Shown: piece by piece, positions 45,382-64,000 of the stretch
How positions within the stretch are numbered: position 1 is the first letter of the stretch
Layout of the letters: every line of letters begins with the position of its first letter
Source of the DNA: Acidimicrobiales bacterium
Lineage (GTDB): Bacteria > Actinomycetota > Acidimicrobiia > Acidimicrobiales > RAAP-2
Reading direction: 5' to 3'
Length of the DNA: 64,000 nt
Assembly: GCA_030039755.1 (NCBI GenBank)
Contig: JASHUY010000074.1
Coordinates: forward strand, 1-64,000
Made by a program: the position numbers and the translations under genes
Notes under the pieces: generated by a model
Databases searched by the model: none
Seen by the model: only the letters and a program-made list of their open reading frames with translations
What the model was told of the DNA's origin: nothing

Positions 45382-46266
45382 ATGACGGCCTACACGGTGC
45401 CGAGTGACGCATGCCGTCGCCCGATCGCAATCGACGGAGCGGGGACGATCGGAAGGCAGATCGCCACGGCCTATGCCGCCGGCGGGAGCGACGTCCGGCT
45501 CTTCGACCTCTCCCAGAGCCAGCGCGAAGCAGCAGGCGACTACGTGCGCGAACACGTCGGGCGGTTCCGCACGAAGCTCAACCCCGACGGACCACGGACC
45601 GGTCGAGCGACGGTGTGCGGGAGCCTGGACGAGGCCGTCGACGGCGCTTGGATGGTGGTCGAGGCCATCTCCGAGAAGCTCGAGCTGAAGCAGGCGACGT
45701 TCGCGCTCCTCGACGAAACTGCGGACGACGATGCGATCCTGGCGAGCAACTCCTCGTCGATACCCACGAGTCAGTTGGTCGGAAGCGTCCGGCACCGCGA
45801 GAGGGTCCTGAACACGCATTACTTCATGCTGCCGGACATCAATGCCGTCGAGCTGATGTCCTGCGGCGAGACCGACGAAGGCGTGATCACCGGCCTGATG
45901 GAAGAGATCCCGCACTACGGGCTCGCACCGTTCCGCGTGCGCAGAGAGAGCGACGGGTTCATCTTCAACCGCATCTGGGCCGCGGTCAAGCGTGAGTGCC
46001 TCATGGTGGTCCAAGAAGGGGTCGCGGCGCCCGAGGACGTGGACGAGATGTGGAAGATCTTCACGTCGCCCGGCATCCCGCCGTTCCGGTTCATGGACCA
46101 GGTCGGGCTCGACGTGGTGCTGGACATCGAGGAGCACTATGCGTCCGTGCGGCCCGGGCTGCCCGAAGGCCCGCGGCAGCTGCTGAAGATGCTGATCGAC
46201 GAGGGAAGGCTCGGGGTCAAGAGCGGCCGAGGCTTCTACGGTGATCCGTCCGTCGTCCGAGCCTGA
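45382..46266 (+). CDS. 3-hydroxyacyl-CoA dehydrogenase family protein
   Basis: IAIDGAGTIGRQIATAYAAGGSDVRLFDLS; NTHYFMLPDINAVELM; start refined from ORF 44227..46266. Confidence 0.88.
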   Translation: MTAYTVPSDACRRPIAIDGAGTIGRQIATAYAAGGSDVRLFDLSQSQREAAGDYVREHVGRFRTKLNPDGPRTGRATVCGSLDEAVDGAWMVVEAISEKLELKQATFALLDETADDDAILASNSSSIPTSQLVGSVRHRERVLNTHYFMLPDINAVELMSCGETDEGVITGLMEEIPHYGLAPFRVRRESDGFIFNRIWAAVKRECLMVVQEGVAAPEDVDEMWKIFTSPGIPPFRFMDQVGLDVVLDIEEHYASVRPGLPEGPRQLLKMLIDEGRLGVKSGRGFYGDPSVVRA

Positions 46267-47201
46267 TCCCACGGCACCGCCGTTTCGAGTTCCCCGGAAG
46301 TGGCGAGGCCGTCGATGACCCCTCGCCGCGTCACGCAGAACGCTCCCGAGCGGCATCCTGCGTCGATCGCGTCGTCCATCGTGCTTCCCCGGGCGAGCGC
46401 CGCGACGAGACCGGCGGTGAAGGCGTCTCCGGCGCCGGTCGTGTCGAGCACCTCGACCGCGTAGGCGGGGAACCGCTCGACGCCGTCCACCGACGCCCGG
46501 AGCGCACCCTTCGCGCCGAGGGTGGCGACCACCGTTCCGACGCCCCAGTCGACCAGGGCGAGCGCCTGTGTCTCGACCCGGGCGGTTTCGACTCCGAGGT
46601 GGCGCGCAAGCGTTGCGAGCTCGACCTCGTTCGGCGTCAGCACGTCGAAGAGGTGGAGGTCCCCACGGTCGATGGGACGAGCAGGGGCGGGGTTCAGCAC
46701 GACGCCTTTCCCTCCTTCGTGCGCCCAGACCGCAAGTCCGGCTGCGAGCTCCGAGGGGCACTCCAGCTGGCAGACGATGTAGCTGCACTTCTCGAGCTCG
46801 TCGCCCAGCGCCAGGATGACGTCACGGCTCGTCAGCTCGAGGTTGGCTCCCGGTGCAACGCTGATCGCATTGTCGCCCGATGTGTCGACCAGGATCACCG
46901 CGACACCCGTCGGCCCGGACCCCGTCATGATGCCGTGAGGGGGAAGGCCTTCAGAGACCAAGGTCGCCCGCGCCTGGCTCCCGAAGACGTCGTCGCCAAG
47001 CTTCGTCGCGAACGCGACGTCGACACCGAGCCGGGCGATCCCGATCGCCTGGTTGGCGCCCTTGCCCCCGGGGCCCGCCTCGAAGCGGTGAGCGAGAACG
47101 GTCTCACCGGCTGCCGGGAGACCACCCCCGTACACGGTGAGACCGGCGTTGTAGGAACCCGCGACGACGACAGACGCCGTGCGGCTCGCCCTATTCATCA
47201 A
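46236..47201 (-). CDS. ribokinase-like PfkB family carbohydrate kinase
   Basis: EAGPGGKGANQAIGIARLGVDVAFATKLGDD; DTTGAGDAFTAGLVAALARG. Confidence 0.9.
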   Translation of the reverse strand: MMNRASRTASVVVAGSYNAGLTVYGGGLPAAGETVLAHRFEAGPGGKGANQAIGIARLGVDVAFATKLGDDVFGSQARATLVSEGLPPHGIMTGSGPTGVAVILVDTSGDNAISVAPGANLELTSRDVILALGDELEKCSYIVCQLECPSELAAGLAVWAHEGGKGVVLNPAPARPIDRGDLHLFDVLTPNEVELATLARHLGVETARVETQALALVDWGVGTVVATLGAKGALRASVDGVERFPAYAVEVLDTTGAGDAFTAGLVAALARGSTMDDAIDAGCRSGAFCVTRRGVIDGLATSGELETAVPWDQARTTDGSP

Positions 47202-47276
47202 CTGTTCGTCTCACTGTCGCTCCGGGGAAGTCGCTCCGCGAACCGCTTCAGCTCGGCGACCGGTGACGTCGTCGCC

Positions 47277-49073
47277 TCAGTCGACGACGGGGATCGAACC
47301 GAGAAGCTCTCCCGTCGTACCGTCGGCGATCCCGAGGTCCGTGACGTGCGGTCCGGGGAGGCACGGCAAGGTCGCCGTCATTACCTGGAAGAGCGGCTGG
47401 CTCAAGAGCGACGGCCGCAGCCCGACGGAGAGCGCGGCCCGCTCGACCCGGTCTTGGGCGGCCGCCACCGCACGGGGCTCATCCGTCGAGAGGAGACCGG
47501 CGATCGGTAGCCGGACCATCGCGAGCACCTCGCCTCGGGCTGCGACGGCTACGCCACCGCCGGCCGCGATCACCGAATTGGCGGCCGCGGCCATGTCGGC
47601 GGGGTCGCGTCCGAAGACGACGAGGTTGTGCGAGTCGTGCGAGACGGTGGTCGCGACCGCTCCACGCCACCTCCCCCAACCGCTCAGCACGCCTACGCCC
47701 GGCGCGCTCGAACGGCGCCCGTGCCGATGGACGACCGCCTGGTAGATGCAGTCCTCGGGGAGCTCCAGCCGTCCACGGGAGCAGCCGACGGTCCTCGTCT
47801 CCCAGTTCGTGGTCACGACGCCGTGGACCACGCGGACCTCGACGTCGCCCGGCGCGGCGTCCACGGTGAACGCGAAGTCGTCGGACGACATCGGCGACAG
47901 GCGGACGGTCCGGAGCGGCGGCGCGCTCGGGCTCTCCCCCACCGGCACGACGAGCTGACCGTCGACCGCGACCTCGACCCCCCGTGAGAACACGCGATGG
48001 ACGGCGAGCGACCGGAGGTCCGAAAGCACGAGCACGTTCGCGAGCCGCCCCGGCGATACGAGACCGAGGTCGCGCCGGCCGAGGCGGTAGGCGGCGTTGT
48101 AGGTCGCCATCCGCACCGCGACGCTCGCGTCGACGCCGGCTTCGACCAGGCGCCTCAGGAGATGGTCGACCCCACCGTGCCGTAGGAGCGTCGACGCGAA
48201 GAGGTCGTCGGTCGCCGCGACGACGTGGACCGGGAGCTGGGGGAAGTCCTGCAGCGCGGAAGCGACCCCCGGGATGAGCGACTCGAACGCGCCGCGTAGC
48301 TCCACGGTCAAGCCCGCCTGGACCCGGGCCAGGAAGTCGCCATCGACCATGAGCTCGTGGTCGGACGTGATGCCCGCCGCCGCGTACGCCTGCAGGTCCG
48401 CACCGCCGAGCCCTGCGGCGTGCCCGTTGACCAACTTGTCGCTCGCGATGCCGGCGTCCACGATCCCGCCCATCCGTTCGTCGAGCGCAAGGACCCCTCG
48501 CATGTCCATGACCTCGGCGAGCCCGACCACCTCCGGCCAGCGCAGCATCTCGGCGATCTCAGCAGGGCCGAGGTCTGCACCGGAGAGCTCACGCCCCGGG
48601 ACGGGCGGCACGCACGACGGCGCCTGCACGAGGAACTCGACGGGCAGGCCCCGGCTGGCGTCGATGGCGTAGCGAACCCCGTCGAGGCCCGCGACGTTCG
48701 CGAGCTCGTGCGGATCGCAGTGAACGGTGGTGGTTCCCCTCGGGCAGACCGACGCGGCGTACGACGCCGGGGTGAGCATGGAGCTTTCGAAATGCACGTG
48801 CATGTCGACGAAGCCAGGGCAGACGACTTCGCCGGTTGCGTCGACGAGCTTCCGCGCGTCCGTTCGTGACCCGGTCGGGTGGACGCTGGCGATCAACTCG
48901 CCCGAAATGCCGACATCCGCACGGCGGAGCTCGCAGGTGCCGACGTCCAGAACCGCACCGTTTGCGATCATCACGTCGAAGGGGCGGTCTCCACGTGCCG
49001 CGGCCACCGCCTCGCGCCGAGACCCGAGAGGAGGCGTCGTAGGAGCGTGATCGCTCCTCGTTGAGCCGGTCAT
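47277..49073 (-). CDS. adenine deaminase
   Basis: VVCPGFVDMHVHFESSMLTPASYAASVCPRGTTTVHCDPHELANVAGLDGVRY; SHDSHNLVVFG. Start refined from ORF 47277..49487. Confidence 0.93.
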   Translation of the reverse strand: MTGSTRSDHAPTTPPLGSRREAVAAARGDRPFDVMIANGAVLDVGTCELRRADVGISGELIASVHPTGSRTDARKLVDATGEVVCPGFVDMHVHFESSMLTPASYAASVCPRGTTTVHCDPHELANVAGLDGVRYAIDASRGLPVEFLVQAPSCVPPVPGRELSGADLGPAEIAEMLRWPEVVGLAEVMDMRGVLALDERMGGIVDAGIASDKLVNGHAAGLGGADLQAYAAAGITSDHELMVDGDFLARVQAGLTVELRGAFESLIPGVASALQDFPQLPVHVVAATDDLFASTLLRHGGVDHLLRRLVEAGVDASVAVRMATYNAAYRLGRRDLGLVSPGRLANVLVLSDLRSLAVHRVFSRGVEVAVDGQLVVPVGESPSAPPLRTVRLSPMSSDDFAFTVDAAPGDVEVRVVHGVVTTNWETRTVGCSRGRLELPEDCIYQAVVHRHGRRSSAPGVGVLSGWGRWRGAVATTVSHDSHNLVVFGRDPADMAAAANSVIAAGGGVAVAARGEVLAMVRLPIAGLLSTDEPRAVAAAQDRVERAALSVGLRPSLLSQPLFQVMTATLPCLPGPHVTDLGIADGTTGELLGSIPVVD

Positions 49074-50209
49074 CTCCCGGCGTGTGCCTTGCGCCACTCG
49101 GTGAACTCCTGCACGTACCTGGCCCGGTCGACGTGATCGAGGAACGACGCTTCGACGGCCCGGATGCTCGAGTCGAGCAACTCGTCCACGCTGAGGCCGA
49201 GGCCGTCGTCGGCGTTCGCCAGCAGGTACTCCTGGGTGAGCGAGAAACGGAAGAGCGCGGGATCGTCCGAGTTGATCGTGACGAAGAGGCCGGCGGCGAG
49301 CATCTCGCGGATCGCGCCGAGCCGCCACTTGCGGGTCGCCCGGCGGCTCGTGGTGGGGATGACGTTGAAGGGGATTCCCTCGTCCCGGCACCGGGCGACG
49401 ACGCGTCGGTCCGACAGCACGTGGTAGCCGTGGTCGATCCGCTCGCACCCGAGGGCGTCGAGGCAGGTGGTGACGTTCCGTGCCCACCGGTCGTGCTCAG
49501 CGGCATGCGCCGTGCGGTGCAAGCCTCGCCGCTTCGCCGTCACGAACGCGTCGGCGAACTGCTCGGGAGGTCCCGCGATCTCTTCGTAGTCGAGCCCGAC
49601 GCCGACGATCTCCTCCTTGGGGTAGGCGACCACCTCCTCCACCATCGCCCGCGCCACCTCCCCCGTGTCCTCCCTGTCGACCGCCGCGATCACCGCTGCC
49701 TGTACGCCGAGGTCGTGGACGGCAGCCCGGATTCCTTCGACGAGGCCGTCGGCCATCGTCCGGTAGGAGACGCCGTGGCCGAAATGGACGCTCGGGCTGA
49801 ACGCGAGCTCGTGGTACCGCGTGTTGTTGATCGTCACGCCGTCCTCGATCGCCTCGTACGCGGCCCGCGCGAAGTCCTCCTGGTCCCTCAGGCACGCGCA
49901 GATGTCGTCGTACACGTCGAGCAAGCCGAACCAGGGTCCCTCGTCACGCTCTTCGGGAAGCGGGTCGCTGTTGATGTGGTCGTAGAGCTCGTCCGCCGGC
50001 AGAGGGAGCTCGATCCCGTGCTTCTTCGCGAGCTCGCCGAAGGTCCCGCTCCGGACGCAGCCGATCAGGTGGACGTGGAGGTCGACCTTCGGAGCAGCGC
50101 GGAGGATCGAGCGTGCGTCCGGACCGCTCCTCTGGTTCCTCTCGTTCCTCTGGTTCCTCGTGGTCGCAGTCGACATTGTCGCAGTCAACGCTCGACGCTC
50201 CTTCCGCAC
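49070..50209 (-). CDS. adenosine deaminase family protein
   Basis: PKVDLHVHLIGCVRSGTF; RIDHGYHVLSD; FVTINSDDPALFRFSLTQEYLL. Confidence 0.9.
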   Translation of the reverse strand: MRKERRALTATMSTATTRNQRNERNQRSGPDARSILRAAPKVDLHVHLIGCVRSGTFGELAKKHGIELPLPADELYDHINSDPLPEERDEGPWFGLLDVYDDICACLRDQEDFARAAYEAIEDGVTINNTRYHELAFSPSVHFGHGVSYRTMADGLVEGIRAAVHDLGVQAAVIAAVDREDTGEVARAMVEEVVAYPKEEIVGVGLDYEEIAGPPEQFADAFVTAKRRGLHRTAHAAEHDRWARNVTTCLDALGCERIDHGYHVLSDRRVVARCRDEGIPFNVIPTTSRRATRKWRLGAIREMLAAGLFVTINSDDPALFRFSLTQEYLLANADDGLGLSVDELLDSSIRAVEASFLDHVDRARYVQEFTEWRKAHAGR

Positions 50210-50261
50210 GACGGACGTGCCTCGAGTCGGCAGGTCACCGGGTCTGACGGGTCACACGGCG

Positions 50262-51944
50262 TCAACGGGCCTCGAGCCAGGCCTTGCCGAGCTGCGCGGT
50301 CTCCACCGGGGGGCGCTCGCGTCGGGCCCCCAAGCGGGCGAGCACCGTACGCCAAGCCCGCGCGCCGGACGACCCGGCACCCGCGACGCCCAGGCGACGG
50401 AGCGCCACCCGTTCCACCGCGCTCAACACCGAATAGAAGAGGATCGAGAGGATCGTCAGGACGACGGCCGCCGCCCACATCTGTGTGTAATTCGAATTGA
50501 CGAACGCCGTGACGATCAGGTACCCGAGTCCCCGCCCCGTGGCGAGCCACTCCGCGAGGGTGGCGCCGAGCACGGCGAGCGGAGCGGATATCCGGGCGGC
50601 GGCCAGCATCGCGGGCATTCCGATCGGCAGCCGAAGCCGCCACAGCGTCTGCCAGAGCGAGGCGTCGTGGGCGCGGAAGAAGAGGAGCGTGTCGCCGGAA
50701 GCCGAGCGCAGCCCGAACATCGTGTTCACGAGAACCGGGAAGAACGTCACGATGGCCGCGATCGCCCCCGCGGAAAGCCGCCCCCTGCCGAGCACGAGCG
50801 TCACGATGGGCACGAAGACGATCGCCGGGATCGAGCTCACGATGAACGCGAGCGGTATGACGGCACGCCCCGTCGCCGGGGAGACCACGAAAAGGACGCC
50901 GAGGACCCAGCCGACGGCGATGCCGACGCAGAAGCCGAGTCCCGCGTCGGCGAGCGTGATGCCGATCTGCGACAGTACGACGGATCCGGCGCTTCCGACG
51001 AAGAGGTAGTTGAAGACGTCCGCGGGGTTCTTCACCACATAGGTCGAGAGGTCGAACACCGGGATCGCAGCCCACCACACCAGCAGGATCAGGCCGATCG
51101 ACGCGACCGTCTCGACGCTCCGGACGATGCGCGACCGGCTGTCGCGCCTGGTGAGGTCCAACGCGGTCGCGGTCGCCGACGCATCGAGCGGGGGGCTCCA
51201 CGGGTTCAGCAGGCGCCCGATGTACCGGACGAGGTAGTACCCGGCCAACGCGAGCGCCGTCGTGACCGCTGCCACGCCCCACACTCGGTCGACCTGTGCG
51301 CCGTACATCGCGTCGATGAGCATGACGCCGAGCCCGCTGCTCGCCCCGATGAACTCGCCGAGGATGGCACCGACGAGAGCGGCCGGAACCGTCAAGCTGA
51401 GCCCGGTGACGATCCCCGGAAGCGCAGCCCTTGCTCGGACCTTCGTCAGCGTCCTCCATCGTCCGGCGCCGTACGCGCGGGCGACGAGCAAGGCTCCGGG
51501 GTCCGCCTGACGGAGCCCCAAGAGCGTGAGGATGAGCGTCGGGAAGAAGACGAAGAATCCGGCCAGCACCGCTCCGGGCGCGTCGCCGGAGAGGGTCACC
51601 TCGAGCACCGGTGCCAGAGCGACTCCCGGGATGCTGAAGACGGTCAGCCCCAGGAGGAGGGCGGGACGCTCGGTCCGCGCGACGGACTGCGCGATCCCTG
51701 CGACGACGATCGCGGCGGCGTTCCCGATCGCCCAGCCCTTCGCAGCCGTCTCCAGCGTTGTCGGGACGTTGGCCCCGTACAGCGCCCGGTCGTCCCACAG
51801 ACCCGCGACGACGTGGGTCGGCGCGGCGATGATGCCCTTTCCGGCGAGCACCCACTCGCCGAGCACCTCCAGCACCAAGAGGATCAGAAGAGCGAGGCCC
51901 GCCGTCCCTCCCCACCGTCTCACCGCGGCGCGGAGCGTGCTCAT
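50262..51944 (-). CDS. ABC transporter permease, two fused BPD domains (NitT/TauT type)
   Basis: Two repeats of TM bundle with EAA-like loops (ARAYGAGRWRTLTKVRARAALPGIVTG and FRAHDASLWQTLWRLRLPIGMPAMLAA). Confidence 0.85.
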   Translation of the reverse strand: MSTLRAAVRRWGGTAGLALLILLVLEVLGEWVLAGKGIIAAPTHVVAGLWDDRALYGANVPTTLETAAKGWAIGNAAAIVVAGIAQSVARTERPALLLGLTVFSIPGVALAPVLEVTLSGDAPGAVLAGFFVFFPTLILTLLGLRQADPGALLVARAYGAGRWRTLTKVRARAALPGIVTGLSLTVPAALVGAILGEFIGASSGLGVMLIDAMYGAQVDRVWGVAAVTTALALAGYYLVRYIGRLLNPWSPPLDASATATALDLTRRDSRSRIVRSVETVASIGLILLVWWAAIPVFDLSTYVVKNPADVFNYLFVGSAGSVVLSQIGITLADAGLGFCVGIAVGWVLGVLFVVSPATGRAVIPLAFIVSSIPAIVFVPIVTLVLGRGRLSAGAIAAIVTFFPVLVNTMFGLRSASGDTLLFFRAHDASLWQTLWRLRLPIGMPAMLAAARISAPLAVLGATLAEWLATGRGLGYLIVTAFVNSNYTQMWAAAVVLTILSILFYSVLSAVERVALRRLGVAGAGSSGARAWRTVLARLGARRERPPVETAQLGKAWLEAR

Positions 51945-51981
51945 CCAGAGAGGTGGCGTCGAGGTCGGTTGGACACGTCGA

Positions 51982-52806
51982 TCACGCGACGGTCTCCTCC
52001 ACCGCCTGTGCCCGGGAGCCCCCTGAGAAGAGCTTCTCCATCAGTTCGTCACAGATCGCGTGGAACTCGGGGCTGCGCAGCACCGAGACGGTCCTCGGCC
52101 GAGGAAGGTCGACCGAGCGGACCGCGAGGATCCGTCCCGGCCTTCCGGACATCACGACGACCTGGTCCGCGAGAAAGACCGCCTCCTGCATCGAGTGCGT
52201 CACGAGCACCGTCGTCGTCGGACGCTCGGTCCAGATGCGCAGCAACTCGAGGTTCAGCCGCTGCCGGGTCATCTCGTCGAGAGCGCCGAAGGGTTCGTCG
52301 AGCAGCAGGAGCTGGGGGTTCGAGATCAGTGCCCGCGCGATCGCGACGCGCTGGCGCATCCCTCCAGAGAGCTGTGCCGGGCGCGCGTCCGCGAAGTGCT
52401 CGAGCTCCACGAGCGCGATCAGGTCGTCCACGACGGTGGGACTGACACGCTCCCGCGCCAGTTCCATTGGCAGCGAGATGTTGCGTCTCACGGTGCGCCA
52501 CGGGAGAAGAGCGGGGTCCTGCAGCGCGAGCCCGATCGCGTGACGCCGTCGCAGGATGTGCGGTGCGCACCCGTCGACCTCGACGCGTCCCGTGTCGAAC
52601 GTCTCGAGGTCGCACAGAATCCGCAGGAGCGTTGACTTCCCGCAGCCCGACGGCCCGACCAGCGACGTGAAGCTGCGCGACGCGGCCGTCAAGCTGATGC
52701 CTTGAAGCGCCTCGAACGACCGGCCGCCGACACGGTAAGACTTGTGCAGCCCCTCGATCACGACGCCGTCGGTCGCCGCACGGCCGACGTCCGCGGCACG
52801 GTTCAT
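51982..52806 (-). CDS. ABC transporter ATPase (NitT/TauT type)
   Basis: [46 protein letters not shown]. Confidence 0.92.
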
Positions 52807-52816
52807 CTCCGGATCC

Positions 52817-53965
52817 TCACTTCAACTTGTACGCCGCCTCGAGGATCTTGTTTGTGAAGATGCTCGATGGCACGCCGGTGATGCCGGCGGCAGCCATCGT
52901 CTCGATGTTCTGACGCGCCTCGCCCATCCACAGCAGCCCGTGAACTTCCGTTGTGTGGCTCACCATGATCTCGGCGTACTTGCGAGCAGCCAACACCGCG
53001 CCCTTCGCTGTGATCACGCCCGAGGACTCGTAGAAGCTCTTCACGAGGCTGATCGTGGCCGTGGGGTTCTTCGAGTAGAACTCCGCTCCCTCCACGACGC
53101 CCGCCATCAGTTCCACGAGCTCCTCCTTCTGGTCCTGCAGCGAGGAGGTGAGGGTGAAGTAGCAGTGCTGGTACTGGTTGAAGTTGAAGTCGGCCCAGAT
53201 CATTGTGATGGTCTTGTGGCCTGCCACCTGCAGCGACACCGACTGTGTCGTGAAGAAGACCACCAGGCCGTCGACCTGACCGCTCGTGAGAGGCGTCGTT
53301 GTGAAGCTGATCGGGACGATCGTCACGGAGCTCTCGGGGACGCCGTTGATCTTCAGGAACGCCTTGAAGCTCGTCACGTCGCCCGCCGCCACGCCTATCT
53401 TCGTCCCCTTCAGGTCGGCGGGTTTGCGAAGCGGCTTCGTCGGGAGGGAGACGACCGCGTACGGCGAGATCTGGAATTCGGCACCGATGATGCAGAACTT
53501 CTGGCTGTGGGCGGACAGGTTCGCCTCTGCCACCGCTGTCACCGAGTCCATGGCCACCAACGCCTTGCCGGATGCCACCACGGCGGACAAGGCGACGTTG
53601 GGCCCACCCGGCAGGAGGGTGACCTGCAGGCCGTTCTTCGTCCAGTAGCCCTTCTTCTCGGCGACGTAGAGCGAGCCGAACTCGGGATTGGGCACCCAGC
53701 TCGTCTGCAGCGTCACGCTCTGCAAGCTTCTCTTCACCGCCGGCGTGCTCGCGCCCGCCGTTCGCGCCCCTCCGACTGACGCCAGCGCACCCGCGGCGAT
53801 CGTCCCGGCCACGCTCCCGAGCGCAAGCTTGCTGAAATCCCGTCGAGTGAGACGCAGGTCACCGGATCGCTCCGAGCCGCTTGACGGGCCGCCTGACAAG
53901 TGGCCTTGTGCCTCGTCCTCAGGTGAATGCATGGAACCCCCCTTGCTTTTCCGTCGTGCCTTCAT
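52817..53965 (-). CDS. ABC transporter substrate-binding protein (NMT1/SsuA-like), Tat-type signal
   Basis: [64 protein letters not shown]. Confidence 0.88.
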
Positions 53966-54067
53966 CGGCGTCTCGTTGCGGATGGGAACGGTCGGTACGT
54001 CACCGCTCGCGAACCGCCAACTCGAAGAGCGTAACCGGGGCAGAGAACGTGCACGGGCTGCACGGTG

Positions 54068-55477
54068 TCACGCTGCTCCGATCAATGTCTCGAACCTGCT
54101 CATGATGACGGGGAGCCGCTCCGCGAGCCGCGCCCGTAGCCGTTCCTCGTCCACGTGCACGAGCTCGCGACCGTCGAGGACGACCTTCCCGTCGACGACG
54201 ACGGTGTCGACGTCCCGGCCCGTGACGCTTCTCGCGACGGTGAACGCCGCGTCGGTGACGGGTTGGAGATCCCAGGTCTGGGACTGCACCAGGATCACGT
54301 CGGCTCGTTTCCCCACTTCGAGGCTCCCGGTCCAGGCGCCCAGTCCGAGCGCCCTCGCTCCTCCGATCGTCGCCGCTGCGAACAGCGACTCGAGGGAGAT
54401 CTCGCCGCGCGCGTGCCACGGCGTCGCGAAGTGGCTCTGCAGCGCGACCCACGAGGCGCGGACGGCCTGGAAGAGGTCGAGGCTGCCGGACGACGCCCCG
54501 TCGGTGCCCAACCCCACCTCGATCCCGAGGCGGAGCATCTGTGGGATCTTCGGAGGGCCGATCAGAAAGTTGCCCATCGGGCAGTGCGCGACGCTGACCT
54601 TGTTCGACTGGTACATCCGGAGCTCGTCGTCCGTGAGGAGGACCGAGTGCGCCGCATGCACCCCTGGACCCAGGAACCCGGTCGCGTCGAGGTGCTCGGC
54701 CGGCCGTTGGCCCCAGTGCTCGGTGGCGTAGTCGACTTCGTACGTACCTTCCGCGAGGTGGATGTGGATCCGCGCGCCCGTCTCCTTCGACAGGTCGGCG
54801 AACGTGTCCCACAGCTCGGCCGAAGAGACGATCAACTGGCGGAGCGCGAGCCATGCACCGACCCGGTTCTCCTCCGACGGCACGCCCCAGTTCTTCACGA
54901 GCCGCAGGTTCTCTTCGACCGCCTGCCCGGTCGAGAGGGTGGCGCCGTCGGGCAGGCCGTCCGCGTCGTCCAGCGTCGACCTGGCGATGATCCCCCTGAT
55001 GCCGATCTCGCGCGCCGCGAGACCCATCTCGTCCGGGTGCGGACCGCCTGCCTCCGCGAAGCAGGTGGTCCCGACGGAGAGCAGGTTCCCATAGCCGACG
55101 AGCCCGGAGAGATGTACGTCCTCCTCGCTGAGCGCCGCCTCGAACGGGATGAGGTAATTTCGCCAGATCGGGATCTTCAGCTGCCGCCGTCGCGCGAGCT
55201 GGGCAAGCTTCCCCCTCAGGAGCTGCTGGCCCGTGTGAAAGTGGGTGTCGACGAGGCCGGGAAGCATGAAGTGCCCGCCCGCGTCGATCGTTCGTGCCGC
55301 CGTGAACCGCCCGTCGGCGTCCGACGACGCACCGATCCAGACGATCGTTCCGTGTCTGACCGCGAGGGCGGCGTCCGGGAGCACCGTTCCCGCGGCATCC
55401 ATGGTGACGGCGCTGCCACCTCGCAATAGGAGGTCGACCGGCTCTGGAGCTCCCCGTACGCCGCCGGCGGGGCTCAC
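54068..55477 (-). CDS. amidohydrolase, cytosine/MTA/SAH/guanine deaminase-like
   Basis: HFMLPGLVDTHFHTGQQLLRG; RIHIHLAEGTYEVDYATEHWGQRPAEHLDATGFLGPGVHAAHSVLLTDDEL; GLGTDGASSG. Confidence 0.88.
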   Translation of the reverse strand: MSPAGGVRGAPEPVDLLLRGGSAVTMDAAGTVLPDAALAVRHGTIVWIGASSDADGRFTAARTIDAGGHFMLPGLVDTHFHTGQQLLRGKLAQLARRRQLKIPIWRNYLIPFEAALSEEDVHLSGLVGYGNLLSVGTTCFAEAGGPHPDEMGLAAREIGIRGIIARSTLDDADGLPDGATLSTGQAVEENLRLVKNWGVPSEENRVGAWLALRQLIVSSAELWDTFADLSKETGARIHIHLAEGTYEVDYATEHWGQRPAEHLDATGFLGPGVHAAHSVLLTDDELRMYQSNKVSVAHCPMGNFLIGPPKIPQMLRLGIEVGLGTDGASSGSLDLFQAVRASWVALQSHFATPWHARGEISLESLFAAATIGGARALGLGAWTGSLEVGKRADVILVQSQTWDLQPVTDAAFTVARSVTGRDVDTVVVDGKVVLDGRELVHVDEERLRARLAERLPVIMSRFETLIGAA

Positions 55478-55744
55478 CGGGTCGTCCTCCCCCGTCTCGC
55501 GCTATCGCGCTCGGTCCACCCGGTCACCCGAGGCGCGGGCTTCTCTCGCGGACCTGGGACGGATGCGCCCCTCTTCTTGCGGCTCCCGACCGAGCTTGCG
55601 CGGCCCCGGACCGGGCGACGGGCGCTCCGAGCCGTGCACGCACCCTCGTGCCCGGCACCGTTCTTCGCCTCGGTGGTCGTCCCGAAGCGGCACCCACACG
55701 CACCCCCCAGACCGCCCCCGGCGCACCCGCCGAAAGCCATATCG

Positions 55745-55766
55745 GTAACGTTTTCAGAAACGGTAC
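55745..55766. promoter_or_regulatory. LacI-type operator candidate (site 1)
   Basis: GTAACGTTTTCAGAAACGGTAC, near-perfect inverted repeat; similar to site 2. Confidence 0.6.
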
Positions 55767-55873
55767 TCGTTCCGACGAACCACGTCAACGGCCCGTCCGT
55801 CCGGCCTGTCGGGACGGCGCACACGCGTGATCGGCCGCAACGCCGGGTGGGGACCAGCCGACGACGGTGCGTC

Positions 55874-56977
55874 TCACGAAGCCTTCTCGGCCCGGCCCTT
55901 CCTCCCGCCGGCTGGGGACGCCCCGCCACGACCCGGTACGAGGCCCTGAAGGGGTGGCCGGAGCGTGGAGTCGGTGCTCCCACGGACGAGGAGCTGGGTG
56001 GGGAGCACCTCCGACGCGGTCGGACCCGCCCGCCGGCCGAGCTGGCGCAGGAGGACCCTGACCGCCCGCCGCCCCATCCGGTCGATGTGCTGGTCGACCG
56101 TCGTGAGGTTGACGAGCGGCGAAGCCGCGAGCTGGACGCCGTCGAACCCCGCGAGAGCCACGTCGTCGGGAACCTTGAGCCCCCGATCGATGAGCGCCTC
56201 GAGGGCACCGAGGGCGACCGAGTCATTGACCGCGATCAGTGCGGTCGGCGGGTGCGGGATTTCCCTCCACGCGATCGCGGCCTTGCCGCCGTGCTCGGCC
56301 GAGAAGTCGCCTTCGGCGACGAGCGGGTCGGGCTCCCCCGCCTCGGTCATCACGCGTCGAAACCCTTCGACACGCGCGACCGCGTTCGTCGCGAACTTGG
56401 GACCTCCGATGAAGCCGATCCGGCGGTGGCCGATCGAGAGGAGGTAGCGCGTCAGGTCCTCGGCGCCGCCCGCGTTGTCGGACACCACGTAGCTCGCCTG
56501 CGGATCGGTGGGCGGCCGGTTCGTGAAGACCACCCGTCGTCGGTCCGGAAGCAGTTCGTGAACGACCGCCTCGTCGTGGGAGACGGAGGCGTGGATGACG
56601 CCGTCCAGCCCCTGCAGGAGGAGCCGCTCGAGGTAACGCCGGGTTTCCACGGCCCGGTCGTCCGTGTTGCAGATCACCACCGTGTAATCCCCGCGTTTCG
56701 CCTCCTGCTCGACGCTCCGGGCGAGCTGGGGGTAGAAGGGGTTGGCGATGTCGCTCACCAACAGCGCGAGGAGCCGCGTCCGGCCTGCGACCAGCGCCCG
56801 TGCGATGGGGGACGGCTGATAGCCGAGCGAGTCGATGGCGGCCTGGACCCGGGCGCGGGTCTCGTCTTTCACGTCCGCGTGCTTGCGCACGACCCGTGAG
56901 ACGGTCGAGACGGAGACCTGCGCCAGATCGGCGACATCGACGATCGTCGGGCCTCGCTCCTGTCTGGGGACGCTCAC
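55874..56977 (-). CDS. LacI family transcriptional regulator
   Basis: TIVDVADLAQVSVSTVSRVVRKHADVKDETRARVQAAIDSLGYQPSPIARAL. Confidence 0.93.
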   Translation of the reverse strand: MSVPRQERGPTIVDVADLAQVSVSTVSRVVRKHADVKDETRARVQAAIDSLGYQPSPIARALVAGRTRLLALLVSDIANPFYPQLARSVEQEAKRGDYTVVICNTDDRAVETRRYLERLLLQGLDGVIHASVSHDEAVVHELLPDRRRVVFTNRPPTDPQASYVVSDNAGGAEDLTRYLLSIGHRRIGFIGGPKFATNAVARVEGFRRVMTEAGEPDPLVAEGDFSAEHGGKAAIAWREIPHPPTALIAVNDSVALGALEALIDRGLKVPDDVALAGFDGVQLAASPLVNLTTVDQHIDRMGRRAVRVLLRQLGRRAGPTASEVLPTQLLVRGSTDSTLRPPLQGLVPGRGGASPAGGRKGRAEKAS

Positions 56978-57050
56978 GGACGCATTGTCGCACCGGACGT
57001 AGCCTCCCGACGGGTTCTCGCGCCTCGGGTCCGCTCGTGGCCCCGGGGAT

Positions 57051-58409
57051 TCAGCTCTTCAGGTCGTCACTCAGCCGCCGCAGTGCACGCCCAAGCCTCG
57101 CCGTCATCTCGGTGAGCTCCTCGGTCGTCGACACGAAGGGTGGCATCAAGAGCAGGTAGTCGCCCTTCTCGCCGTCGACGCCGCCGTTGCAGGGGTAGAC
57201 GACGACCCCCTCCTCCATTGCGTAGCGCGCGGCGGTCGACGCCGTCCCGGCACGCGCGGGGAAAGGGGCCTTCGTCGCCCTGTTCGACACCAGCTCCACG
57301 CCTGCAAGGAGCCCGCACCCGCGCACGTCCCCGACGAGGTCGACGTCGCCGAGAACGTCGCGCAGCGCGTCGAAAAACGGGGTCTCGAGCGCCGCGACAC
57401 GCTCCACCAATCTCTCGCGAATCAGGATCTTCAGCACGGCCGCGCCCGCCGCGCAGGCAACGGGGTGCCCCGCGTAGGTGAAGTTGTGCTCGAAGCGTCC
57501 CGACCCCTCCACGAACGGCTCGAGGAGCTCCGCACGAACTGCGAACCCTCCCAGCGGCGCGTAGCCGCCGGACACACCCTTGGCGAAGACGAGGAGGTCG
57601 GGCTGGACGTCGAAGCGCTCGACGCCGAACCACCGTCCGAGACGGCCGAACCCGGTGATCACCTCGTCCGCGACGAGGAGCACCCCGTAGCGGTCGCAGA
57701 TGTCCCGGACCACCTGGAAGTACCCGTCTGGCGGGGTCAGCGCCCCGGCTGCGGCCCCGACGACCGGCTCGACGACGAAGGCGGCGACCGATTCGGGCCC
57801 GACCTCGAGGATGCGGCGCTCCAGCTCTTCGGCGCATTCGAGCGTGCAACTTCCCGCTCGCGCGCAATGGCCGCACCCGCGATACCTGTTCGGAGCCTCG
57901 ACGTGGGGGAAGGGCAGGAGAAGCGGCGCATGGCGCTTCCTCCGGATGGCGTGCCAGCCGGCCGCGAGCGTGGCGAGCGAGTTTCCGTGGAAGCTCGGCC
58001 ACCGACCGATCACGCGCCACCGCTCCGGCTCGCCTCGTTCGAGCCAGTACTGCCGTGCGAACTTGAAGGCGCTCTCGTTGGCCTCGGAGCCGCCGGACAC
58101 GAAGAAGACCCGGTCGAGGTCCCCGGGCATGACGGACGAGACAAGACCGGCGAGCTCGCGGGCGGGGAGCGACTCGAAACGAAGGGCGTGGACGTAGGGA
58201 ATCCGCTCGGCCTGGTCGCGCATCGCGTCGGCCACCTCGGACACTCCGTAGCCCAGGCTTGCCACGCCGACACCTGCCGCGGCGTCCAGGTAGCGACGGC
58301 CGTCCTCGTCGACGAGCTCGACCCCCTCACCCCGGACGAACGCCCTCGGCGGCCCTGAGAGCTCGGCCTTGAGGAGGTGGCCGGGCGCGCCGAGAGCCGA
58401 CCCGGTCAA
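57051..58409 (-). CDS. class III aminotransferase
   Basis: YGVLLVADEVITGFGRLGRWFGVERFDVQPDLLVFAKGVSGGYAPLGG PLP-lysine region. Confidence 0.9.
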   Translation of the reverse strand: MTGSALGAPGHLLKAELSGPPRAFVRGEGVELVDEDGRRYLDAAAGVGVASLGYGVSEVADAMRDQAERIPYVHALRFESLPARELAGLVSSVMPGDLDRVFFVSGGSEANESAFKFARQYWLERGEPERWRVIGRWPSFHGNSLATLAAGWHAIRRKRHAPLLLPFPHVEAPNRYRGCGHCARAGSCTLECAEELERRILEVGPESVAAFVVEPVVGAAAGALTPPDGYFQVVRDICDRYGVLLVADEVITGFGRLGRWFGVERFDVQPDLLVFAKGVSGGYAPLGGFAVRAELLEPFVEGSGRFEHNFTYAGHPVACAAGAAVLKILIRERLVERVAALETPFFDALRDVLGDVDLVGDVRGCGLLAGVELVSNRATKAPFPARAGTASTAARYAMEEGVVVYPCNGGVDGEKGDYLLLMPPFVSTTEELTEMTARLGRALRRLSDDLKS

Positions 58410-59698
58410 CGTGCGCCCTCGGCGACCGCCTCGGGCAACGCGTCCCGGACGCGGACGAAGGCGTGCTCGTAGCCCGAAGCGACTCTCGCGAGGTGGTCGT
58501 CGGTCATCGCGGTCGACAGGTTGAGCATGCCCCTCGGCGCCGCGTACACGCCTTCGAGCAGGAGGGCGAGATGGAGCGCGGCGAGCCCCTGGCGTTCCAC
58601 CGACCCGGGGCTGGCGGCGACCGTCGGGCGCGCGCTCGCAAGGTGAACCTGCAAGATCGAACCCGCCCGGCTCACGACCGCCTGCACGCCGGCGCGCGCG
58701 GCTCCAGACTCGATCTCGTCTGCGAGCGTCGCCGCTCGCCCGTTCAGTTGCTCGATCGCTCCGGCGTCCAGCATCCGCAGCGACACGACGCCGGCGCTCG
58801 CGGTCACGACGTTGCCGTTGAACGTGCCGGAGTGCGAGAGGGCACGCGGGTGGAGAGGGTCGGTGTACCCGAGCAGCTCAGCCCGTCCGAGAACCCCGCC
58901 GACCGGAAAGCCACCACCCACGATCTTCCCCACCAGGACGAGATCCGGGGAGAGATCCAGCTTCCCGTGCACGCCGCCGAAGGAGTTCCGAAGGCTCTGG
59001 ACCTCGTCGAGGACGAACAACGCGCCCACCTCGGCTGCACGAGCGCGGACACGTTGCAGGAACCCGGGTAGTGCGGGCACCACGCCACCGTTCCCGAGGA
59101 AGGGCTCGACGACGACGGCAGCCGCCGACGGGCCCAGCACGGACTCGACCCCTCGCAGGTCGTTGTACGCGGCCCGGACCAGGTCCGGGCCGCCGTCGGC
59201 GAGCTCGGGCACCGAGCCGTGATAGCCGCCCTCGAACGCCACGACGACACGCCGCCCGGTCGCCGCCCGTGCGATGCGCAGCGCGAGCAGCGTCGCCTCG
59301 GACCCCGAGTTCGTGAACCTGACCTGCTCGGCGGCGGGATACCGTTCGCGGAGCAGGTCCGCGAGCTCGAGTTGGCTCAGGTGCGGCGCGGGGAACACCG
59401 TTCCCGACTCGAGCGCTCTCCGCACCGCGTCGAGGATCTCGGGGTGCCGGTGGCCGTGGACGAGGGACGTGTAGTTGTTCAGGACGTCCACGTACTCGCG
59501 GCCGTCGACATCTCGGACCACAGCGCCGTTTCCGTCGTCGAGCACGACGGGATAGGGGTCGAAGTGCGCGATGGTGCGCGTCTGCCCGCGCGGCATCACC
59601 CGGCGGAACCGCTCGTGCAGCGCCCGCGAGCGCTCGGTCTTCTCGAGGTAGTCGCGGACGAGCTCTTCCGAGCTCCCGGGCATGCGTCCATCCTTCAC
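58406..59698 (-). CDS. class III aminotransferase, glutamate-1-semialdehyde aminomutase-like
   Basis: RRVMPRGQTRTIAHFDPYPVVLDDGNGAVVRDVDGREYVDVLNNYTSLVHGHRHP; FVLDEVQSLRNSFGG; VGKIVGGGFPVGG. Confidence 0.88.
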   Translation of the reverse strand: MKDGRMPGSSEELVRDYLEKTERSRALHERFRRVMPRGQTRTIAHFDPYPVVLDDGNGAVVRDVDGREYVDVLNNYTSLVHGHRHPEILDAVRRALESGTVFPAPHLSQLELADLLRERYPAAEQVRFTNSGSEATLLALRIARAATGRRVVVAFEGGYHGSVPELADGGPDLVRAAYNDLRGVESVLGPSAAAVVVEPFLGNGGVVPALPGFLQRVRARAAEVGALFVLDEVQSLRNSFGGVHGKLDLSPDLVLVGKIVGGGFPVGGVLGRAELLGYTDPLHPRALSHSGTFNGNVVTASAGVVSLRMLDAGAIEQLNGRAATLADEIESGAARAGVQAVVSRAGSILQVHLASARPTVAASPGSVERQGLAALHLALLLEGVYAAPRGMLNLSTAMTDDHLARVASGYEHAFVRVRDALPEAVAEGAR

Positions 59699-59756
59699 GC
59701 CACGACCTCCGTGGGCACGTGGGGACGCCGGGGGGCGCGGATCGCACGGCTCGTCG

Positions 59757-60476
59757 TCAAGGCTTGCCGATGCATGTCGGGTGCGCGCGCAGCTCGGGGT
59801 CGTGGCTCGGGATCATCTCCCACCCGCCGGCGCGGGCGGTCTCGAGGAAGTGCTCGGTCTCCGCGGTCCGTGGGCACGACGGGGCCACGATCCCGGTGTT
59901 GGCGTACATCGGCACGATGTCGCCGCAGACGCAGACCGGGCCCGAAGGACGTGTGAGGACGACCGACTGGTGCCCGGGGGTGTGGCCGCCGTTCCACAAG
60001 ACCTGAAGGCCGGGGAGCAGCTCGACGTCCCCTTCGACGGTTCGCACGCGCTCGCCGAGCATCTCGAGGAACTTTGCGACTTCGACGTAGTAGGGCCCGC
60101 TTCCGGGCCCGGTCGCCCAGCGCACCTCCGACCGTTGGACGACGACTTCGGCCTTGGGGAAGCAGGTGTCGTTGCCCACGTGGTCGTAGTGAAGATGGGT
60201 GTGGACGACGAGTGTCACGTCGCCGGGCTCCACGCCGCAGGCGCGCAACCCCTCGTGGAGGAGCGCGGAAGTGTCGCCTTCGATGGTGAAGCCCGCCGCG
60301 GCCGAAGCCCGTGCGTTGGCGCCCGTGTCGACGATGACGTGATGCGGTCCGTCCGTGAGCAGGAAGCAGTAGCACGGCAAGGCGACGAGAAGATCGGGCG
60401 GAGCCCCGGGCAGATGGGAAGCGAGCGGCACGCCCGGGATCACCCCGACCTCGAGGATGGAGAAGCTCCAGTGCAC
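59757..60476 (-). CDS. MBL-fold metallo-hydrolase (lactonase-like)
   Basis: HHVIVDTGANARASAAAGF; VVHTHLHYDHVGNDTCFPKAEVVVQRSE; NGGHTPGHQSVVL. Start refined from ORF 59757..60932. Confidence 0.88.
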   Translation of the reverse strand: MHWSFSILEVGVIPGVPLASHLPGAPPDLLVALPCYCFLLTDGPHHVIVDTGANARASAAAGFTIEGDTSALLHEGLRACGVEPGDVTLVVHTHLHYDHVGNDTCFPKAEVVVQRSEVRWATGPGSGPYYVEVAKFLEMLGERVRTVEGDVELLPGLQVLWNGGHTPGHQSVVLTRPSGPVCVCGDIVPMYANTGIVAPSCPRTAETEHFLETARAGGWEMIPSHDPELRAHPTCIGKP

Positions 60477-60487
60477 CGCATCCGCCT

Positions 60488-61258
60488 CTACGTGTGCGCG
60501 GTGAGGAGCATGCCGCCGTCGACGTAGATCATCGACCCGGTCACGTAGGCGGCGTCGGGCGAGCAGAGGAACGACACGGCTCCGGCGACGTCCGAGGGCT
60601 CCCCGGCACGCCCGAGGGGGATCGTGGGGACCGTGCGGTCGAGGTACTCCTGGCCGCTGCCGCCCCCGAGCTTCGTGTGCACGATCAGGCCGGGCCCGAC
60701 CGCGTTGACCGTTATCCGGTACGGCGCGAGCTCCAAGGCCAGATTGCGGGTCAACATCCAGACCCCGCCCTTGCTCGCGTCGTACGCGGCGAGCCCACGC
60801 CCGGGCGCGCTCGCGTGGACCGACGCGACGTTGACGATCCTGCCCTCGCTTCCGGCATCCACCATCAGCCTGGCGGCCGCGAGGTCGCAATGGAACGTTC
60901 CGGTCAGGTTCACGTCGATCACCTGGCGCCACGCGTCCTCGCGGAGGTCCAGGGGGGGTGAGGACGCGAGGATGCCCGCCGAATGGACCAGCGCGAAGAG
61001 CGGTCCGCCTCCCTCGCAGACCTGGGCGAACGCGCTCGCCACCTGACCCTCGTCGCGCACGTCGGCCTGCGCCGCGACGGCGTCCCCGCCCGCGGACCGG
61101 ATCGCATCGGCAACCTCCTCGACGGCGGCCACGTCGCGGTCGACGACGCCGACGAGGAACCCGTCTCGGGCGAGCCGCAACGCCGCCGCCCGGCCGATGC
61201 CGCTGCCGGCGCCGGTGACGACCGCACTCCTCTTGCGACCGTTGCCGCCTGCGCTCAT
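60488..61258 (-). CDS. short-chain dehydrogenase/reductase
   Basis: AVVTGAGSGIGRAAALRLARDG; YDASKGGVWMLTRNLALELAPYRITVNAVGPG. Start refined from ORF 60488..62323. Confidence 0.92.
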   Translation of the reverse strand: MSAGGNGRKRSAVVTGAGSGIGRAAALRLARDGFLVGVVDRDVAAVEEVADAIRSAGGDAVAAQADVRDEGQVASAFAQVCEGGGPLFALVHSAGILASSPPLDLREDAWRQVIDVNLTGTFHCDLAAARLMVDAGSEGRIVNVASVHASAPGRGLAAYDASKGGVWMLTRNLALELAPYRITVNAVGPGLIVHTKLGGGSGQEYLDRTVPTIPLGRAGEPSDVAGAVSFLCSPDAAYVTGSMIYVDGGMLLTAHT

Positions 61259-61266
61259 CGCGCCGT

Positions 61267-62247
61267 TCACCCGCGCGACCGCGCCGCGGCCGGGCCCTTG
61301 CGGGTGCGGATCGTCGAAAAGACCCGCTCCACGTCGTCCGCGACGCGGGCCGCGGAGAGGCGGTACTTCTCCAGCAGGGCCTCGTTGGGACCGCTCTCCC
61401 CGTAGCAGTCCTGGATCCCGAGCCGCTTCACGGGCACGGGGGCCTTGTCGGCGAGGACTTCGGCGACCGCGCCCCCCAGCCCACCGAGCACGCTCTGCTC
61501 CTCGACGGTCACGACGAGCCCCACGCCGAGCGCGGCCTCGACGAGGGCGTCCTCGTCGATCGGCTTGACCGTGGGGCAGTGCAGCACCGCCGCGCTGACG
61601 CCGCGCGCGGCCAGGAGCTCGGCGGCTTCGACGACCCGGGTCGTCTGCACCCCGGTCGACACGAGCACGAGGTCGTCGCCGTCGCGCAGCACGACCGCGC
61701 GCCCGAGCTCGAAGTGGTAGTCCTCGTCGAAGATCGCAGGCGAAGGCTCCCTCGTGATCTGGATGTACGCGGGGCCGTCCAGAGCCGCGAGGCGCTCGAC
61801 GGCCTGTCGGGCCTCGATCTGGTCCGCCGGGGCGACGACGGTCATGCGGGCGAGGGAACGCATGACCGCGACGTCGTTGAAGATCTGATGCGTCTTTCCC
61901 GTCATGCCGGTCAGAAGGCCGGCATACCCGCCGACGATCGTGACCGGCAGCCCGGGCTGTGCGACGAGCACCCGGATCGAGTCCAGCGCGCGGGCAACGG
62001 CGAAGCAGGCGAACGTCGTGACGAACGGGACGAACCCGACGGTCGCGAGGCCCGCCGCCATGGCGACCATGTTCTGCTCCGCGATGCCCGCCTGCAGATA
62101 GCGACCCGGGTGGGCGGTCTCGACCGCCGCCCCACCCGTCGAGCTGCCGACGTCCCCGTCGAGGACGACGATCCTCGTGTCGCGGCCCGCCAGCTCCGAG
62201 AGCGTCTCGCCGAGCACCTGTCGAAGCGGGGGGCCCACCACCCTCAT
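61267..62247 (-). CDS. transketolase, C-terminal subunit
   Basis: MRVVGPPLRQVLGETLSELAGRDTRIVVLDGDVGSSTGG; PGRYLQAGIAEQNMVAMAAGLATVGFVPFVTTFACF. Start refined from ORF 61267..62940. Confidence 0.9.
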   Translation of the reverse strand: MRVVGPPLRQVLGETLSELAGRDTRIVVLDGDVGSSTGGAAVETAHPGRYLQAGIAEQNMVAMAAGLATVGFVPFVTTFACFAVARALDSIRVLVAQPGLPVTIVGGYAGLLTGMTGKTHQIFNDVAVMRSLARMTVVAPADQIEARQAVERLAALDGPAYIQITREPSPAIFDEDYHFELGRAVVLRDGDDLVLVSTGVQTTRVVEAAELLAARGVSAAVLHCPTVKPIDEDALVEAALGVGLVVTVEEQSVLGGLGGAVAEVLADKAPVPVKRLGIQDCYGESGPNEALLEKYRLSAARVADDVERVFSTIRTRKGPAAARSRG

Positions 62248-63116
62248 CGCGCGCGCTCGAGGGCACGTCGTGCGACATCGATCTCCTCGAGCGCACACGC
62301 CAGCTCGTCGGCGGTGGGGACACGGCTGTGCCAGCTGAAGTCGTCCTCCATGAACGACACGCCCTTCCCCTTCACGGTGTGCGCGACGACGACGGTCGGG
62401 GCGCCGGTCCGCGCCCGCGACTCCCGGAGGACCGCCGTGAGCGCACGGAGGTCGTGACCGTCGACCTCCAGGACCCGCCACCCGAACGCGCGCCAGCGAT
62501 CGGCCAGCTCGGCAGCCTCGTAGGGTCGGGCCCGTCGGCCGGTCGCGGGGTCGCGCCACCCGAATTGCTGCAACCCGTTCTCGTCCACGACGGCGACGAG
62601 GTTGTCGAGGCGGTAGCGACGGGCTACGTGCGCGCCCTCCCAGACCGTGCCCTCGTTGCACTCGCCGTCGCCGACCATGACGAAGGTCGTGAAGCTGCTC
62701 CCTCTGAGACTCGCGCCCAGGGCGATCCCGACCGCAGCCGAGAAGCCCAGTCCGAGCGACCCGGTGGACATGTCGAGGCCGGGCAGCATCGTCATGTCGG
62801 GGTGCCCCTGCAGGCGCGAGTCGATCGCGTCGAACGTCATCACCTCTTCGAGCGGGAAGTAGCCGCGGAGCGCCATGACTGCGTAGAGGGCGACGGAGCT
62901 GTGCCCCTTGGAAAGCACGAAGCGGTCGCGCTCGGGCCATGTGGGCTCCTCGGGGCGGATCCGCAAGACTCGGAAGTACAGCACGACGAGGGCGTCGACG
63001 GCGGACAGCGGACCTCCGAGATGGCCGCCCCGCGCGGTCGCCACGGCACGGACCACGGTCTCACGTGCGTCGCACGCGAGCGCCCGGAGTTCACCCTCCT
63101 CGGCGCCCTCGCTCAC
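62244..63116 (-). CDS. transketolase, N-terminal (TPP-binding) subunit
   Basis: GHLGGPLSAVDALVVLYFRVLRI; GHPDMTMLPGLDMSTGSLGLGFSAAVGIALGA; GDGECNEGTVWEGAHVA. Start refined from ORF 62244..63416. Confidence 0.9.
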   Translation of the reverse strand: MSEGAEEGELRALACDARETVVRAVATARGGHLGGPLSAVDALVVLYFRVLRIRPEEPTWPERDRFVLSKGHSSVALYAVMALRGYFPLEEVMTFDAIDSRLQGHPDMTMLPGLDMSTGSLGLGFSAAVGIALGASLRGSSFTTFVMVGDGECNEGTVWEGAHVARRYRLDNLVAVVDENGLQQFGWRDPATGRRARPYEAAELADRWRAFGWRVLEVDGHDLRALTAVLRESRARTGAPTVVVAHTVKGKGVSFMEDDFSWHSRVPTADELACALEEIDVARRALERAR

Positions 63117-63505
63117 GTGCCAGTTCTCGCCTCGTACGATCCGGGCACGACCGGCGGCGAGAAGATCGACAGGAGCTCGAGAGGCCCTGGGCCGGCCGAC
63201 ACCGTGGCGTGATGCAGACCGGGCGGGATGTAGACCGAGACCCCCGGCTCGAGGTCGACCGACCCGTCGGGCGTGACGAGCCGCCCGCGCCCCTCGAGGA
63301 TGTACACGACCTCCTCTTCGCGTTCGTGCACGTGCCCGTCCGGCGCCGAGCCCTCGGGGAACGTCGCGACCCCGACGGTCACGCGCTGCGCACCGGTGTT
63401 CTCCGGTCCCACACACAGACGCCAGTCCCTGCCAGGGAGCGGGAACACCTGGGCGTCGTCCCGGTGGACCCGCTGTAGTCCCCCTTCCCGCGCGACCTCA
63501 GCCAC
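63113..63505 (-). CDS. cupin-domain protein
   Basis: GHVHEREEEVVYILEGRGRLVTPDGSVDLEPGVSVYIPPGLHHATV; start refined from ORF 63113..63808. Confidence 0.82.
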   Translation of the reverse strand: MAEVAREGGLQRVHRDDAQVFPLPGRDWRLCVGPENTGAQRVTVGVATFPEGSAPDGHVHEREEEVVYILEGRGRLVTPDGSVDLEPGVSVYIPPGLHHATVSAGPGPLELLSIFSPPVVPGSYEARTGT

Positions 63506-63562
63506 AGCACGCCCCCTCCTGATGAGCCCCGTCGGTCTGACGGGAGCATCGGCATCGTTACC

Positions 63563-63584
63563 GGTAGCGTTTTCGACGACGCTA
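63563..63584. promoter_or_regulatory. LacI-type operator candidate (site 2)
   Basis: GTAGCGTTTTCGACGACGCTAC, perfect 7-bp arms GTAGCGT/ACGCTAC, just upstream of the cupin/transketolase operon. Confidence 0.6.
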
Positions 63585-64000
63585 CTCCGCCGGCGTGGCA
63601 GCGTCAACGGTCGCCGGCGCGGGGGATGGTGCTCGCCACCGTCGTGCGCGTGCGGAAGACGCCCGAGCCAGCGAACACCGCCTGGGTCCCGTCGCGTTGA
63701 TGGCGTGGGGCCGAGTTGACGCCTTCGGTTCAGTGACCTAATAATTGGACGATGGCCAACTTGGGGGGTGACCGCCTTCACCTCCGTGCAGGTGAAGGGC
63801 AGAGTCAAGGCATCTGCATCAGTTGGAGGAACTCCGGGGGCTCTCCGTGCGATCGTTGGTAGCGCCCGAAGCGGAAGGGCATTCGCAGCTACTTGTGGGC
63901 CCTCTCGAACTTCAGCCTGTCCACCTCGTCGCTTGGACGGCTGCCTTGGTGCATCGCTCCCGCTTCGCGCGCATGGTATGCGGAAGTGATCTTCGTCACG

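Follow-up and report, generated by a model that had tools for sequence, protein, structure and literature searches.

A predicted, apparently undescribed LacI-family regulon with overlapping operators at cupin/split-transketolase genes of Acidimicrobiales and Chloroflexota

Introduction

Two familiar operators of the LacI family are the CcpA cre box, TGNAANCGNTNNCA, and the PurR operator, ACGCAAACGTTTGCGT, which have in common a CG centre, G at -6 and A at -3. CytR, a LacI-family regulator of nucleoside catabolism, accepts half-sites at flexible spacing.

A central CG is present in 1173 of 1303 LacI-family motifs (PMC4052901). This centre has been linked to the hinge leucine of the protein, and the G at -6 to arginine 20 of the TVSR helix (PMC2978694). 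Overlapping sites at a distance of ∼13 bp have been found upstream of 110 operons; their overlap reaches far into the zone of specific contacts, and its mechanism was left unexplained (PMC4052901).

Here we analyze a 64-kb stretch of DNA from an Acidimicrobiales bacterium (the window), which carries two candidate operators of one LacI-family protein. These have the CG centre, G at -6 and A at -3 of the CcpA and PurR operators, but differ from them in the specificity bases at -5/-4 and in the regulon. A possible nucleoside link and a non-standard arrangement of half-sites recall CytR, whereas the spacing in the window clade is fixed. The local LacI-family regulons collected in PMC4052901 resemble the locus in their even, CG-centred palindromes and in being local, autoregulated and directed at adjacent operons for carbohydrate-type catabolism. 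Against those regulons, in a non-exhaustive comparison, the window genes (cupin, split transketolase, MBL-fold protein, aminotransferases and deaminases) match none that we recognised, and the window clade has operators that overlap at a distance of 12 bp, with as many as four registers. Overlapping, conserved operators within a single promoter are also known for GntR of gamma-Proteobacteria at gntKU (PMC4052901); there, however, the distance is ∼13 bp as opposed to a 12-bp pitch with more than two registers in some promoters, and the genes and phyla of the window clade are unrelated. Thus the regulon is of a known general kind and apparently an undescribed member of it, attached to a cupin/split-transketolase pathway common to Chloroflexota and a rare Acidimicrobiales lineage.

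Results

Site sequences, their uniqueness and conservation, the promoter geometry, the linkage to a LacI clade and the 12-bp spacing were computed from the DNA; coordinates are collected in Table 1. Both operons lie entirely on the minus strand. The cupin operon, whose first start codon is inferred near 63505, encodes a cupin, transketolase N, transketolase C, an SDR, a metallo-beta-lactamase fold protein, two class-III aminotransferases and the LacI protein. The second operon encodes an amidohydrolase, an NMT1-type solute-binding protein, an ABC ATPase, a fused permease, an adenosine deaminase, an adenine deaminase and a ribokinase-type kinase. Site 2 precedes the cupin gene and site 1 lies between the LacI gene and the second operon, so that a candidate site stands before the regulator's own operon and before the adjacent catabolic one, the layout of a local LacI regulon. 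An initial sequence-only reading had named the LacI protein as the regulator, an isolated gene between the two operons. The assignment is supported, but the isolation is not: the gene shares the strand of the site-2 operon, follows the preceding gene after 73 bp and is most simply the last member of the cupin operon. Judged by strand and gap, LacI is therefore probably autoregulated.

Table 1. Positions of genes, promoter elements and candidate operators in the window
Feature	Position	Strand	Basis or remark
LacI-family regulator, VSVSTVSRVV recognition helix	55874..56977	-	last gene of cupin operon
Rest of cupin operon	57051..63505	-	Pfam; same order and strand in genus-mate G011
Second operon	46236..55477	-	Pfam and NCBIfam
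22-bp palindrome 1, GTAACGTTTTCAGAAACGGTAC	55745..55766	+	located in window
22-bp palindrome 2, GTAGCGTTTTCGACGACGCTAC	63564..63585	+	located in window
Core operator 1 (candidate), TGAAAACGTTACCG	55743..55756	-	exact in G011; one of two genome places of YGAAAWCGYTACCG at 0 mismatches
Core operator 2 (candidate), CGAAAACGCTACCG	63562..63575	-	exact in G011; other genome place of YGAAAWCGYTACCG
-35 box TTGACG, promoter 1	55783..55788	-	pattern scan
-10 box TACCGT, promoter 1	55760..55765	-	within right arm of palindrome 1; 17 bp from -35
-35 box TTGACG, promoter 2	63602..63607	-	pattern scan
-10 box TAGCGT, promoter 2	63579..63584	-	within right arm of palindrome 2
Second operator register, site 2, CGGTAACGATGCCG	63550..63563	-	12 bp from core
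Weak upstream register, site 1, GAGTACCGTTTCTG	55755..55768	-	12 bp from core, overlaps -10 box

Membership of the regulator in the LacI family is indicated by Pfam matches to an N-terminal LacI HTH and a periplasmic-binding-protein-like sensor domain, both above their cut-offs (PF00356, 62 bits; PF13377, 120 bits). Its best relatives in the PDB are RbsR, CcpA and PurR. Alignment with homologs places the recognition helix at VSVSTVSRVV and the hinge leucine in PIARALV, and the candidate sites of this TVSR protein have both the CG centre and the G at -6.

Upstream of each operon lies one of two similar 22-bp palindromes. The first begins and ends exactly where it had been reported, while the second is present one base to the right of the interval first given for it (63563–63584). 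Both were described as having inverted arms of 7 bp, which is correct for site 2; at site 1 only 6 of the 7 positions are matched. With up to 3 mismatches the window contains the two palindromes only (0.01 expected). In pattern-based scans of the 2.98-Mb draft genome exact matches were confined to the two sites, rather than the many random ones that would speak against the motif; no third site was found at 0 mismatches, although the draft is ∼70% complete and a further one could thus be missing. Among 60 relatives, the pattern recurs only in genus-mate G011, at site 2.

Read on the minus strand, each site has the order TTGACG, 17 bases, TASCGT, 3 bases and a 14-bp CG-centred sequence of LacI type, YGAAAAC|GYTACCG. 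At site 1 this core spans the position where transcription of the amidohydrolase/ABC/deaminase operon is predicted to begin, and at site 2 it sits at the cupin/transketolase promoter. At 0 mismatches, YGAAAWCGYTACCG occurs in exactly two places in the window genome and two in G011, all of them within the cluster. An even palindrome with a central CG and G at -6, present at both sites and at Chloroflexota homologs, is what would be expected of an operator for a TVSR-type LacI protein (PMC2978694, PMC4052901).

The promoter pattern TTGACN-N16–18-TANNNT occurs twice on the two strands of the window, only at the two sites, compared with a mean of 0.2 and a maximum of 1 in shuffled sequences; the pattern was formulated after the sequences had been seen, and its support is the recurrence at both sites and in G011. 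A scanner for consensus promoters, requiring 9 of 12 matches to TTGACA/TATAAT, returned nothing at either site. Because TTGACG-N17-TASCGT precedes each operator and this arrangement is kept in G011, the shared block ACGSTACTC is mainly a -10 region. The 22-bp palindrome is thus a composite of the left half of the core operator and the -10 box, the latter part also scoring as a weak upstream operator register.

The same cluster is present in the genus-mate G011 (JASHYA010000034.1, Acidimicrobiales MAG JOPF271), its LacI protein being 89% identical, and here the two halves of the palindrome part ways. The left block common to both sites, GGTARCGTTTTC, is fully retained at each of them; the right block ACGSTACTC is kept at site 2 and lost at site 1. 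At site 1, CGCCGAAAGCCATATCGGTAACGTTTTCAGAAA is unchanged while the right arm has gone from ACGGTAC to AACGTAT, and even so promoter 1 retains TTGACG-N17-TACGTT. At site 2 the 22-mer is intact except for one loop base, and promoter 2 keeps TAGCGT at -10 with a spacer of 18. The phylogenetic footprint proposed at the outset is therefore found for the CG-centred 14-mer at both sites, but not for the 22-bp dyad at site 1. An additional site, CCGTATCGTTACCG, lies in G011 at L039:6859–6872, 79 bp from the site-1 core.

These data bear on the original proposal that the whole 22-bp palindrome is the operator, its arms GTARCGT and ACGSTAC being read by one dimer. Both sites do share the palindrome, and G011 preserves the perfect arms at site 2. 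Conservation of both arms in orthologous promoters was nevertheless not found, since the right arm is lost at G011 site 1 and the outer arm is absent at the G438 locus. That right arm coincides with a -10 box 17 bp from TTGACG, and the dyad is without the CG that LacI proteins are expected to have at the centre of their sites. We therefore regard this proposal as improbable and take the 14-bp core to be the candidate operator.

Close relatives of the window LacI are found in Chloroflexota at 47–63% identity. Several of these loci combine cupin, transketolase N and transketolase C genes, in that order, with a sugar-type or other ABC transporter, an MBL-fold protein and LacI, and a motif scan located CG-centred sites, YGRTAWC|GWTAYCR, in them. 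A held-out motif was built without seven loci (G744, G751, G577, G862, G873, G843 and G641). Its best match per locus fell at most ∼300 bp upstream of cupin or transketolase N in six of the seven, tied in G862; in G577 it fell upstream of LacI. LacI proteins from site-bearing loci cluster together with support of 100/99, and inside that clade the window protein groups with a Chloroflexota subclade (98/96). By contrast, the LacI homologs L043 and L044, at 40–47% identity, have no strong site or motif, so the operator code stops at the edge of the clade; nor was a site seen near LacI on the short contig of G625. A second 0-mismatch place in G438 (C144) was rejected as a regulon member, being inside a predicted ORF by crude gene calls.

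Like sites thus follow the LacI clade into another phylum, upstream of cupin/transketolase genes, which supports the initial suggestion of one LacI regulon. The prediction that the two operons form one LacI-regulated unit is well supported, with support for the second operon confined to the window genus because several site-bearing Chloroflexota loci lack its genes. No further carrier of the LacI gene was detected among 395 Acidimicrobiia genomes sampled. LacI and its operon (55874–63505) were found in two genomes of that class only, with their closest relatives in Chloroflexota, and lateral transfer is suggested by these comparisons. The LacI-linked transporter varies by genome, being of family-5 SBP, liv, ribose or NMT1 type (L133, L135, L129 and window 50262–53965), while cupin and transketolase stay constant.

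A palindrome scan by itself cannot tell which protein binds. TetR proteins bind palindromes of similar length, and a TetR-family gene, divergent from the cupin operon and followed by M24 peptidase and family-5 binding-protein genes, lies outside the window at L040:1283–2005 (∼64283–65005 in window numbering), ∼700 bp past site 2. As the binder of the two sites, however, this or any regulator other than LacI is very improbable: a TetR relative is absent from the G011 contig beside a conserved site and from beside the Chloroflexota sites, and the sites track the LacI clade. The gene was rejected on synteny, its neighbourhood not being conserved. We give scarcely any credence to the idea that the shared sequence is merely a promoter class, TTGACG-N17-TASCGT plus a start region, with no dedicated regulator. 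The right arm and the -35 box are indeed promoter elements, but the core is palindromic, occurs only twice per genome near LacI in the window species and G011, and is found in another phylum with no fixed position relative to -10 and -35.

In most promoters of the LacI clade, a second operator is found exactly 12 bp from the best one; G641 has three registers and G695 four. This spacing was examined with a leave-one-out motif in 12 promoters, leaving overlap positions unscored and removing near-duplicate promoters. Offsets -12 and +12 ranked first and second of all tested, and neither was reached in any of 500 shuffles. CG dinucleotides number 31 in the 6-bp register versus 3–13 in the other phases. 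The two window sites illustrate the ladder only modestly. At site 2 the downstream register, CGGTAACGATGCCG, is good, with the third-best motif score in 20 kb (14.9 of 20.4 bits), and is unchanged in G011, and the upstream one is weak. Site 1 is weak on both sides; its leave-one-out score at -12 exceeds that at all its other offsets except +12, and the upstream register GAGTACCGTTTCTG is out of register in G011. G466 has no good neighbouring register. Overlap at one fixed pitch across this set of 12 promoters thus places the clade among overlapping-operator systems, and the pitch is 12 bp rather than the ∼13 bp of GntR; a pitch of 13 is suggested, by eye, at G011 site 1 alone. The strict 12-bp ladder is a variant of the known but unexplained overlapping arrangement.

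At least two LacI dimers might stack on these registers as a cooperative array. The same pitch is seen on both sides of a phylum boundary, with as many as four registers, and functional overlapping sites have been reported for gntKU of E. coli (PMC4052901). Adjacent half-sites nonetheless share 2 bp in the same major groove, and simultaneous binding is hard to square with known structures (PMC4052901), making such stacking unlikely. Because overlapping half-sites fall in the same major groove, alternative use of the registers by one dimer is the likeliest arrangement. A more radical proposal, which we find doubtful though not far-fetched, is that the ladder has a binding mode of its own, a (CGNTAN)n hexamer array being read by several dimers or by one that exchanges between registers; the operators explained by known LacI structures are, by contrast, isolated or helically phased (22/32 bp).

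Discussion

We consider it probable, on the strength of these sequence comparisons, that LacI represses its own cupin operon and the adjacent operon through the 14-bp cores, with 12-bp alternative registers. We infer binding by the window LacI, repression, autoregulation, register exchange and response to an effector as follows. The LacI protein encoded in the cupin/transketolase operon would control that operon together with the amidohydrolase/ABC/deaminase operon. It would bind YGAAAAC|GYTACCG, which follows the -10 box of a sigma-70-type promoter (TTGACG-N17-TASCGT) after 3 bp and extends over the predicted transcription start. Bound there, the repressor would keep RNA polymerase out until released by an effector. 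A single dimer may use the 12-bp registers in alternation, raising its effective affinity.

Overlapping LacI sites were flagged as unexplained in 2014 (PMC4052901). The clade described here provides roughly twelve natural promoters in which LacI operators overlap at a constant pitch and, with up to four registers, makes the question testable.

The initial reading also had both operons answering to one effector and probably acting on one substrate. Such a substrate, if shared, may possibly be a pentose or a nucleoside-like compound, a tentative guess of low confidence. Hints in the window are the ribokinase-type kinase and the adenosine and adenine deaminases. Elsewhere, G744 has RbsD/FucU, MocA and TIM-barrel isomerase-type genes with a ribose-type ABC transporter, G695 an RpiB-like protein, and G862 an aldo/keto reductase beside its second site; the distant LacI homolog L044 adjoins amidohydrolases and an ORF labelled nucleoside-phosphorylase-like by sequence reading. 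An apulose-type transketolase pathway was also considered, and a literature search for it gave nothing relevant.

The leader of the second operon differs between the two genus members. A stretch of 215 bp at 55478–55692, separating the site-1 promoter from the amidohydrolase start, is missing from G011, where the site-1 operator stands ∼50 bp from the start codon. This stretch occurs once in the genome and matches no Rfam family, and a search of the leaders for riboswitches gave no Rfam hit. Upstream of site 2, the plus strand carries TTGACG-N18-AATAAT at 63716–63745, possibly a promoter for the divergent genes.
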